64,000 nucleotides of DNA, taken from the NCBI GenBank assembly GCA_025716815.1, contig JAIXMN010000002.1, forward strand, positions 868,001 to 932,000. Direction: 5' to 3'. The stretch's first letter is position 1. Every line of letters begins with the position of its first letter. This DNA comes from Dichotomocladium elegans (lineage: Eukaryota > Mucoromycota > Mucoromycetes > Mucorales > Lichtheimiaceae). This document shows positions 54,112-58,542 of the stretch, in pieces. The position numbers and the translations under genes were made by a program. The notes under the pieces were generated by a model. The model saw nothing but the letters and a program-made list of their open reading frames with translations, did no database searches and had not been told where the DNA came from.

Positions 54112-55157
54112 ATGTCAGTAGCCACCATTCCCGAAGCAACCTACGAAGCTAGCGTAAACTACCTGAATTCGCTGATTCCCGATCACTTTAAGAAACCCAA
54201 GCTGGGCGTCATTTGCGGTTCAGGCCTCGGAGGTCTCGTCGACACGATCGACCCGTCGTCGAAGATTGAAATCCCTTACCATGAAATCCCCGGTTTCAAG
54301 TCGAGCACAGGTAAACGTTTACTTTACGCTTGCGAAAAGAAAAGAAGTGGCAGGCTGATACGTGGGGGATGATCGGGATCAAAGTGGCGGGCCACTCTGG
54401 CAAGCTTGTCTTTGGCTATCTTGGCGAGCACAAGACAGTGACGGTATTCATGGTGGGCCGCGTCCATCTTTATGAGGGCTATACCCCGCAGGAATGTGCG
54501 TTTCCCGTGCGTGTGATGCATCTTCTCGGTGTGAAAGTTCTCGTGGTGACAAATGCATGCGGCGGCCTGAGCCCGGATTTGAAAGTTTGTGATATTGTCG
54601 TGATCAACGACCATCTGTCCATGCCGTCCATGACCGGCCAGAACCCACTGTGTGGCCCGAATCTCGAGGGCTTTGGTATCCGTTTCCCAGCTGTGTCAGA
54701 TACTTATACATACGCCTTGCGCAAGCTTGCCTTCCGCGCTGCCTTCGAGACTGGGATCGCTGAAAGCAATATTCGCGAGGGTGTCTACGGCTACACCACA
54801 GGTCCTATGTTTGAAACCCGTTCCGAAGCACGCTTTCTCGCATCAATTGGTGCCGACGTTGTCGGCATGTCCACCGTCCACGAAACTATTGCCGCACGCC
54901 ATGCAGGCATGAAGGTCCTCTGCTTAAGCTTGGTTACCAACATCGTCGTTACCGGTCGCGGCAGAGATGCCAAAAAGGAAGTCATGGCCGAAATGGGCAT
55001 CGCAAACATTGTCGATAATGAGCCTGACACAGACCAGACGACAGCAAATCATCTGGAAGTCCTCCAGTCAAGCGCAAGGAGAGCAGATGACTTGCAGCGT
55101 ATGGTAAAACGCTTTGCAGACCTTTGGGTAGAAAATGAAGCCAGCAACACAGCATAG
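54112..55157 (+). CDS. PNP1: Purine nucleoside phosphorylase
   Basis: Phosphorolysis of inosine and guanosine in purine salvage (trimeric, low-molecular-mass family). Two exons, 54112-54310 and 54385-55157, 323 residues. Motifs: GVICGSGLGGL (phosphate-binding serine), the junction-spanning STVAGHSGKLVFG, VMVGRVHLYEGY-like text, VTNACGGLSP, and ETRSEARFLASIGADVVGMSTVHET with the purine-binding glutamate/asparagine block (NACGG, VVGMSTVHE). Ends EASNTA with no targeting signal. All key residues seem present. Confidence 0.93.
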
Positions 55158-55603: not shown

Positions 55604-57471
55604 TCAGTCAAACTCATCCTTTTCCTGGATAAAATTATTTACTTGTGAAGCAGAATGAGGTTGTATCTCGTCAATAAGAGGTAAGGGATTTTCAAGAGCA
55701 GAAGGATACATTGCAAACACGGTATAAGTACCGTCGACTCCTTTCTTTTTCGCCTTGCTTTCAAGCTGTTTATACGGTATGTAGGTGTCTTCTCTGTAAG
55801 GGCCATTATAGCTATCTTCATGGCAGAATCAGGAGTGTAGTTCAGTCAGCAAACAAGGGAATGAGAGAGTTATATGATTGCTTACTCAATTCTGGTTTCC
55901 TTTTTTCCAGCGTCTTTATCACAGGATCACTACACCTGTCAGCTCGGCCTAACTTGACACATCGACTGCAAGGGCGTTCCTTTTCGCATTTTGCTTTAGT
56001 GCCTTCACAGGAGGCTGATGACCAAATCAGGGAGGGAGAGGATGCGAAACAAGTGATGAGCAAATAAATAAACAAGATAAGAAGAACCTGGTAGATTACT
56101 CACAGCAACGACTAAAAAAGACCCCTTCTGGCGGTAACTCGACGCATAATTCACCTATGCCCAATTTGATGCATCGAGAACATGGAAGCGAGCTTGAACA
56201 TGACACGCAATCTTCGTAGCAATTGTCTGTCGAATGGATGATGTGAGCAAGCAAGTACCCAAACAGATGAAAAAATGAATACTTGCAGCAGCAGCTCTTT
56301 TTCGACGACTTCTTCCGCCTTTTTACAGGGATGTTGGAACATGAGCCATCTATGCCTAAACTGACGCATCGCAAACATGGATATTTTCCAGAACATTTTA
56401 AGTTATGCCGACGACAGTAGTTACATCGTATAATGTCTGCATATCTTCCGGGTTTGTCCCTGCATGAATCGCCCTTTCCTAACGCGACGCATCTCGGGCA
56501 CGGGCGTTGATTGGAACACATTCCATTTGTTCTTCGACATGCAACTGATCGAGGAAAGCAGTAATACGAGGATATGTGTGAGAGCTTGCATTATAATGTG
56601 CTTAAGGAATACTCACCACAACGTCGCTCGACTTTCTCTCCTAAAGGGTTTTCATAACATGGTTTTCTAAGTCTGGTGCATTCCGAACATGGGCGTTCGC
56701 TGGAGCATACGCGGTTTTTGAGCTGACACTCGGCTGGCGAGCAGAAGAATCATGTGAGCTACCGAATAAACAAACAAAAAGCTTGTACTGTCAAGCCACT
56801 CACCGCATGGCGTTTCGGCAACGCCGACACATGTTTCATCCAAACCTAACGTCGCGCAAAATTGGCACGGTCGCTGGCCAGAGCAGTCGCGGATTTGTTG
56901 CTTTATACAGTTAGCTGGAGATAGTAATAGGTGTTAGACTATGCCGACAAAGAGAGGCAGTGATAGCTATTTACTGCAGGGCTCGAATCGTCCGATCTGT
57001 CGCCTCTTTGGTTTTGCCTTGAAACATTGTTTCCGAGGCAGGTCATTGTCGTAACCTTCGATTTTGATTGAGTTCTATGCCCAGATACGGTCGTTTAACA
57101 ACCGTGAAATATAAACGATAAGAGTAATATAAATCATACTTACGGATTCTTATAGTGTGTCATGTGTAAGATATGGGAGAGAGCATTCGATAGTAAAGAA
57201 GCGAGATATATGAATAGGCAGGCAATCAGGCAAACAACCAAGAAGCTGTCGTACAGGAAGAAGCTCACCATCAAAAATCACGTTTAGCTTGCTTACAGGA
57301 CACTGTTCCAATAAATACGCCTTCGTCTCTGATCGATCAATGCAATTTAATGCCTGCTGACATTTAGAGAAGATGTCGACAATATTATGTGGTCAAACTC
57401 ACAGTGACGTCCTGATCTTCGGTGGTGGTTTTCCGTTTTCTTTTCGTGGTCATGACTGCAATGTTTTCCAT
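55604..57471 (-). CDS. Protein with six tandem Zn2Cys6 (fungal binuclear cluster) domains
   Basis: Nine exons by eye: 57471-57403, 57353-57297, 57074-56975, 56914-56804, 56733-56617, 56544-56287, 56226-56104, 56014-55886 and 55815-55604; 391 residues. The N-terminus is basic (KRKRKTTTE). Residues 75-306 hold six Cys6 motifs beginning near 75, 112, 151, 192, 237 and 278. Five fit C-x2-C-x6-C-x5-C-x2-C-x6-8-C; the first has x7 between its second and third cysteines. They share a PC.RC..LG core; the fourth (CNYCRRHNLKC) is nearest to classical DNA-binding clusters. Each junction except the third/fourth carries a phase-1 intron between cysteines 1 and 2. One intron (56227-56286) uses a GC donor (GCAAGT). 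The tail of about 85 residues is hydrophilic. No fungal_trans middle-homology domain is seen. DNA binding is inference. Confidence 0.85.
55886..57074 (-). repeat. Exon-level tandem duplication of the Zn2Cys6 unit
   Basis: Exons 56914-56804, 56733-56617, 56226-56104 and 56014-55886 each carry one unit of about 37-43 codons and begin and end in phase 1; exon 56544-56287 carries two units. Lengths 111, 117, 258, 123 and 129 bases are all multiples of three, so units can be added or lost without changing frame. Confidence 0.8.
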
Positions 57472-57960: not shown

Positions 57961-58300
57961 TTATCTCGAGCCGGCCGTTGGGGGTTCTTCCATATCCTTC
58001 CATATCTTCTCCATCCGCTTCCGCTTTTCGTACGATTTGTGCTTGTTCTCTGCCCGGTCAGCAAGGAACTAGACAAGCATATCATTAAACGCAGTCTAGT
58101 CAGTGAAGGTTCTGTTGCTCAGATAGATAGATAGATATATTTCTACGAACCTCCTCTTTCAAGCACTGATCAAGCGCCTGTTTTTTGGCATTACAAGCAC
58201 CAGAGAATTTGTTTAGGAATCCAGCACGATGACATTCCTCAAGTGCTTCGATGGCTTCCAAGCAACCTTGATGCTTATGCTGAGCTAATGGTGGATGCAT
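57961..58300 (-). CDS. CMC2: Cytochrome c oxidase assembly protein CMC2
   Basis: Small twin-Cx9C protein of the mitochondrial intermembrane space. Exons 58300-58151 and 58068-57961, 85 residues. The first C-x9-C is CLEAIEALEEC and the second CNAKKQALDQC; the start MHPPLAQHKH and FSGACNAKK match the family. The C-terminal half is a charged helix (KRKRMEKIWKDM). Upstream in-frame ATG at 58369 would add a hydrophobic leader and is less likely. Confidence 0.88.
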
Positions 58301-58542
58301 TATGAAGGTCGTTTCTTGAGTCCCGGGAAGAGAAACAAAAAAGAAAACAAAAAAAGTCAGCTGTTCCAAAAAGTTAAGAGAAAGAATGTGTTGTTTGGGG
58401 GAACGCGGGGGACGGAGTCGTGTAGCTTGTGAAGCACCGCGCGCAAAATGCAGAACGTTAAACTGTACGTGCGCAAATCCAACAACAGAATAGCTTTCCT
58501 CTCATCTTTTCCCTTTTCTTTTTTTGCTCACTAAAGCGTAAT

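Follow-up and report, generated by a model that had tools for sequence, protein, structure and literature searches.

The window, i.e., the whole stretch of 64,000 nucleotides of the Dichotomocladium elegans (Mucorales) genome analysed here, harbours on its minus strand a gene whose eight exons join into an open frame of 372 residues, ending with a TGA at 55604. The encoded protein carries six tandem Zn2Cys6 clusters (Table 1), an anatomy that is very probably real. The neighbouring genes code for a PNP_UDP_1 phosphorylase (54330-55157), ribosomal protein L23 (52473-52886) and a Cmc1-like protein (58100-58501), and show no evident link to the array.

Table 1. Coordinates of the six-cluster gene, its units and the two-cluster loci of the same genome.
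Feature	Position	Strand	Remark
Gene for the six-cluster protein	55604..57471	-	Open spliced frame; corresponds to NCBI protein P0001
Exons of the 372-residue model	57471-57403, 57074-56975, 56914-56804, 56733-56617, 56544-56287, 56226-56104, 56014-55886, 55815-55604	-	
Exon 1	57403..57471	-	ATG start, basic KRKRK stretch
Exon 2	56975..57074	-	Flank KPKRRQIGRFEPC, whose last residue is Cys1 of unit 1; similar to PKRKQVKNAC of the family
Last exon	55604..55815	-	C-terminal tail without known domain (frame and Pfam)
Possible extra exon	57297..57356	-	Mostly included, and extended, in P0001
Intron 5	56227..56286	-	GC-AG, 60 nt, stop-free; coding in the NCBI model
Unit 1 (residues 56-85)	56829..56978	-	Intron 56974-56915 inside the first CxxC
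Unit 2 (residues 93-119)	56657..56807	-	Intron 56803-56734
Unit 3 (residues 132-160)	56462..56620	-	Intron 56616-56545
Unit 4 (residues 173-201)	56339..56425	-	Intronless; sole unit retaining the tail R (+8) and K (+13)
Unit 5 (residues 218-246)	56144..56290	-	GC-AG intron 56286-56227; loop 1 position 4 is Cys, family-like
Unit 6 (residues 259-287)	55932..56107	-	Intron 56103-56015
Two-cluster loci	C69:36693, C35:775818, C79:402644, C50:3558, C48:376976, C35:1695875		

Gene model and NCBI annotation

Six of the seven introns are of the GT-AG type, the fifth requiring a GC-AG donor. The gene is already present in NCBI as 'hypothetical protein BX666DRAFT_1894703, partial', a D. elegans entry of 421 residues (P0001), which differs from the 372-residue model in two respects, namely, more coding sequence within the first intron and the retention of the fifth intron as coding. 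The join between exons 1 and 2 is uncertain, the NCBI model having added coding sequence within the 328-nt first intron; the clusters are unaffected. In this intron (57402-57075), P0001 apparently includes an exon of 5 nt (AATCC), a possible sign of transcript support.

With regard to the fifth intron, we read the stretch as a putative GC-AG intron, located as in the other units, whose splicing would restore unit 5. Its donor is GCAAGT, the usual form of GC donors, and a branch-like CTCAC lies 21 nt upstream of the acceptor. That the stretch is stop-free and 60 nt long explains how a gene caller could keep it as coding. The same motif expression detects six clusters in the 372-residue model versus five in P0001, where cluster 5 is lost. 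Pfam Zn_clus stretches likewise number six and five, respectively, although at different limits (E 10 and E 1), and a looser expression gave six matches on P0001, one of them spanning units 1 and 2. Were the NCBI model correct, the stretch would be coding, unit 5 broken, and the protein would consist of five clusters plus a hydrophobic insert. We attribute a low probability to this alternative, which concerns the anatomy and is compatible with any of the functional readings discussed below. It agrees with the retention in P0001 of a stretch that is in frame, and with the seeming 5-nt exon, whereas the donor, the branch-like site and an intron position identical to that in the other units speak against it, as does the fact that splicing brings back a C-x2-C of the C-x-N-C type that the related family has.

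Cluster anatomy and relationship to the Pho7-type family

The six clusters follow the pattern C-x2-C-x6/7-C-x5-C-x2-C-x6/8-C. The original prediction of five x6 first loops and a single x7 loop is confirmed here in the 372-residue frame, unit 1 being the one with x7; the last spacing is x6 in unit 2 and x8 in the other five. Among the 39 Cys in the 372 residues, 36 occupy ligand positions, Pro precedes Cys4 in all six units, and consecutive units are separated by linkers of 7, 12, 12, 16 and 12 residues. The protein has a pI of 8.97. Among 100,000 residue shuffles of it, 99,833 contained no motif, 167 contained one, and none contained two.

The whole protein scores 60.5 bits against Pfam Zn_clus (PF00172), for which the cut-off is 21, and thus belongs to this family. 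The six Zn_clus hits expected from the original prediction were recovered as six stretches of the whole protein at the lax limit of E 10, but only four of the six units matched when cut out singly: units 2, 4 and 6 were above the 21-bit cut-off, unit 1 reached 20.9, and units 3 and 5 gave no Zn_clus match. The full-length single-cluster relative P0003 has no Zn_clus match either, and the Pfam model is insensitive to the Pho7-type subfamily. The predicted lack of a middle-homology domain was borne out, neither this nor any Pfam domain besides Zn_clus being detected at E up to 10; the array therefore lacks the Gal4-type combination of a single cluster and a middle-homology domain. Structure prediction of the whole NCBI protein alone gave a pLDDT of 37 and was left unused, while that of unit 4 with 32 relatives gave a middling pLDDT of 72 and three helices. 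The predicted unit 4 structure had no match in the PDB by Foldseek or VIA-align, so that the fold evidence comes from sequence only.

Sequence features suggest that the array probably derives from the Pho7-type zinc-cluster family. Searching the genome with a 27-residue probe listed 17 matches, among which nine loci have the NCQKACKK or HCQKACKK cluster type (E at most 1.4e-7), the remainder being weaker, including two that represent the window gene itself. Two of these Pho7-type single-cluster genes, C46:128020 (L053) and C46:142705 (L050), are separated by about 14.6 kb and point in opposite directions. Units 1, 2, 3, 5 and 6 of the array carry a phase-1 intron one base past the Cys1 codon, and the same Cys1-adjacent phase-1 intron was found in all nine Pho7-type loci; for one (L048), the donor giving the family flank was taken from two possible ones, and for another (L049) the donor was found on re-inspection. 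In five of six other zinc-cluster genes with a late-starting Pfam match, the intron splits the Cys1 codon (TG|Y), two bases off, the sixth being ambiguous and the comparison covering these six among the late-starting Pfam matches. A zinc-cluster set with an RVS(K/R)AC flank (L006, L029, L031, L034 and L047) has the intron splitting the Cys1 codon. Intron position seems to mark zinc-cluster subfamilies.

A further link is the KPKRRQ flank preceding unit 1. The single-cluster paralogue L055, which matches the PDB structure of the fission yeast Pho7 DNA-binding domain at 53.7 bits, has 209 relatives (E up to 0.001); 120 of them (P0003-P0122) were listed and fetched. Among these 120, PKRRQ occurs in 16 and PKRKQ in 49, and two carry a source name derived from the Pho7 locus C27B12.11c. 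The Pho7 structures are also the best PDB match of the array, via unit 2, but the match is weak (E 0.0029).

The cluster cores are more ambiguous. A profile of 116 family clusters gave 11.7-26.1 bits with the six cut-out units, compared with 2.2-11.5 bits for 19 R/K-rich D. elegans clusters, a range that unit 2 barely exceeds; the single clusters L017 and L019, with 24.3 and 15.8 bits, fall within the range of the array units, and, when scored in the context of the full protein, the six domains yield only 4.9-21.7 bits. Cys-preserving shuffles attained the scores of units 2 and 4 in 1 of 200 cases each with the core profile, and that of unit 2 in 2 of 200 with the flanked profile. When ranked by substitution score, only units 1 and 5 have the family consensus as their nearest sequence; for units 3 and 6 the nearest is L017 (C40:483655), for unit 4 it is L019 (C29:546639), and for unit 2 a cluster at C35:775818. 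Since four of the six cores are nearer to some other cluster than to the consensus, our confidence in a Pho7-type origin is fairly good rather than high, and the case for it depends chiefly on where the introns lie and on the PKRRQ flank. The six units retain all 36 ligand cysteines, while at non-Cys positions they agree with the family consensus in 35 of 136 cases (26%; from 3/21 to 8/23 per unit), a count that omits one loop residue of unit 1. A link between the C-terminal GPY and the family's RGPYKK was dropped, as the profile match of unit 6 ends before GPY. At the DNA level, BLASTN of introns and exons within the gene returned just three matches of 9-10 bases, and the duplications are therefore taken as old.

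The tail after the cluster distinguishes the units. Arg at +8 and Lys or Arg at +13 are present in 116 of 116 family clusters among the relatives listed, yet both are kept in unit 4 alone of the six, so that the array as a whole lacks the family tail. Pro at +4 is shared by units 2-5, Pho7 and 43 of the 116 relatives listed. In Pho7, Arg326 and Arg331 map to +8 and +13 after Cys6; according to PMC5559640, the double change eliminated Pho1 expression upon phosphate starvation. None of the six units has a QKACKK-like first loop; that of unit 5 lacks Lys and Arg, and the net charges of units 1 and 5 are 0 and -1. The position of Gal4 Lys18 is Asn in units 2-4, as in Pho7, and Cys in unit 5, as in all 116 aligned relatives among those listed. 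Its loss was rejected as proof of lost DNA binding, since Pho7, a DNA binder, has Asn there (PMC5559640). The original prediction had argued from poorly basic first loops that some units would not bind DNA in the classical way: the tails uphold this conclusion, whereas the loop argument does not suffice by itself, given the Pho7 example. Overall, the tail is a better sign of DNA binding than the R-x-R-K-x-K loop pattern.

Occurrence of the array and codon usage

Protein searches with the whole protein or with residues 50-300 found no relative array: the former returned P0001, and the latter added one weak single-cluster match (E 4.2). The database covered annotated proteins of Lichtheimia, Circinella, Fennellomyces, Phascolomyces, Zychaea and Syncephalastrum, and a close array in these related Mucorales would likely have been seen, although the searches considered only sequences with short words in common (607 and 243 candidates), a procedure that can miss a strongly diverged array. 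Among the 120 relatives listed, the same expression found exactly one motif in 116, none in four and more than one in none. No second array was seen in the D. elegans genome, by searches that give lower bounds, and among the listed results of open-access literature searches, which fall short of proof of absence, no paper on arrays of more than two clusters appeared. The six-cluster gene is apparently lineage-restricted. Six P0001 peptides had no match in viral contigs; a match to an unannotated phage record (E 0.5) was weak and taken as chance.

Six D. elegans loci (L027, L028, L032, L065, L066 and L067) show a pair of Zn_clus matches within a single frame, both clusters being read fully at three of them and the first being visible only from its third cysteine at the other three; L068 has no two-cluster frame. 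These loci form two sets, one of R/K-rich tandem pairs and one of longer proteins with a partly visible first cluster. Two-cluster proteins have also been published (PMC7295025 and PMC10305253). The original statement that zinc-cluster regulators normally have a single cluster accordingly has exceptions, the array itself being an unusual architecture.

Synonymous codon choice in the array gene equals the window background, 500 of 1000 random synonymous versions scoring as high, with a GC3 of 0.445. The codon score is below those of seven reading frames of the window (leave-one-out 0.021 to 0.099) and of 25 zinc-cluster frames (-0.066 to 0.054, unspliced). On a whole-codon score the true frame, at -0.132, shows no advantage over the other frames, which range from -0.187 to -0.085. 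Such background usage fits weak expression, youth or relaxed constraint.

Proposed role and comparison with known systems

Zinc clusters are among the largest fungal regulator families and are viewed as having one cluster per chain, acting as dimers or monomers. The best overall explanation, which we put forward with slightly less than even confidence, is that the locus would be a real, lineage-restricted gene for a Pho7-type six-cluster array acting as a multivalent nuclear DNA binder. The array may have arisen from a single-cluster Pho7-type gene by in-frame tandem duplication of an intron-carrying segment (linker, Cys1, intron and rest of the cluster), unit 4 having either lost its intron or been copied without one. 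Each unit would fold around two zinc ions, i.e., about twelve per molecule. The N-terminal KRKRK and the basic linker after unit 4 suggest a nuclear location, where this basic protein (pI about 9) would act as a multivalent binder. Unit 4, with its Pho7-type tail residues, may serve as the anchor on DNA, the remaining units providing weak extra DNA contacts or binding a partner protein; given the linkers, we estimate that neighbouring clusters could occupy positions no more than roughly one helical turn of DNA apart. Since no activation or dimerisation domain was recognised, the protein would likely compete with or modulate single-cluster relatives rather than activate alone, and we tentatively propose, from these sequence features, that it could be a DNA-binding competitor of its nine single-cluster relatives. 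A bolder proposal, which we regard as doubtful, is that it would represent a fungal counterpart of poly-zinc-finger proteins, having arisen in one mould lineage, whose six Pho7-type modules in a single polypeptide read a long composite DNA site or bridge several sites without dimerisation.

Among the alternatives, a nuclear protein-binding scaffold, in which the clusters would be structural beads no longer reading DNA, is unlikely; the tails lost in five units, the unit 5 loop devoid of Lys and Arg, and linkers short enough (7-16 residues) for compact beads would suit it, but unit 4 retains the loop Asn and the tail R/K of Pho7, and no binding partner or interaction motif is known. That the locus would be a young or decaying orphan gene without important function is rather improbable. 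The lack of a relative array in searches covering related Mucorales, together with background codon usage without frame preference, is in its favour; however, the 372 codons are open across eight exons, and the full conservation of the ligand cysteines contrasts with 26% identity elsewhere. Had Cys been lost at the same rate, the probability of this outcome would be about 6e-22, a crude figure that assumes independence and ignores constraint before duplication, for units that were picked by their cysteines. Another alternative is the metal-storage or metal-sensing option of the original prediction, i.e., a zinc buffer or sensor holding twelve zinc ions in a small protein that has lost DNA binding: although the abundance of ligand cysteines, the five missing tails and the uncharged or acidic units 1 and 5 would be in keeping with it, we consider it quite improbable, as the ligand spacing and the invariant Pro before Cys4 are those of the DNA-binding cluster type, the basic stretches suggest the nucleus, and background codon usage, ill-suited to an abundant storage protein, disfavours such a store.

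A six-cluster chain would show that zinc-cluster modules, much as animal zinc fingers, can multiply within a protein through duplication of a segment with an internal intron, and that ligands can be kept while DNA-contact residues drift, offering a testable case of re-use of a DNA-binding module.

With regard to known systems, Gal4-type Zn2Cys6 activators have the six-cysteine motif in common with the array. They carry a single cluster, dimerise through a coiled coil and often possess a middle-homology domain. The clusters at C40:483655 and C29:546639, which are candidate ERT1/AcuK-like clusters, have an RPC-x-RC second half and resemble units 3, 4 and 6 more closely than does the family consensus; they differ from the array in being single and in lacking an intron in the first CxxC. 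The two-cluster proteins, i.e., the six D. elegans loci and Pleurotus PoZCP55 (PMC7295025), resemble the array in having more than one Zn_clus per protein, but they have just two clusters and different flanks, and those at C69:36693, C35:775818 and C79:402644 differ by their R/K-rich loops. Finally, the Pho7 DNA-binding domain of Schizosaccharomyces pombe (PDB 6e33 and 6o19) and its Mucoromycota family share with the array the RPC-x2-C second half, the intron following Cys1 (in nine D. elegans members) and the PKR-x-Q flank before the cluster; among the relatives listed, this family has one cluster per protein versus six in the array, and an R/K tail after the cluster that unit 4 alone has preserved.
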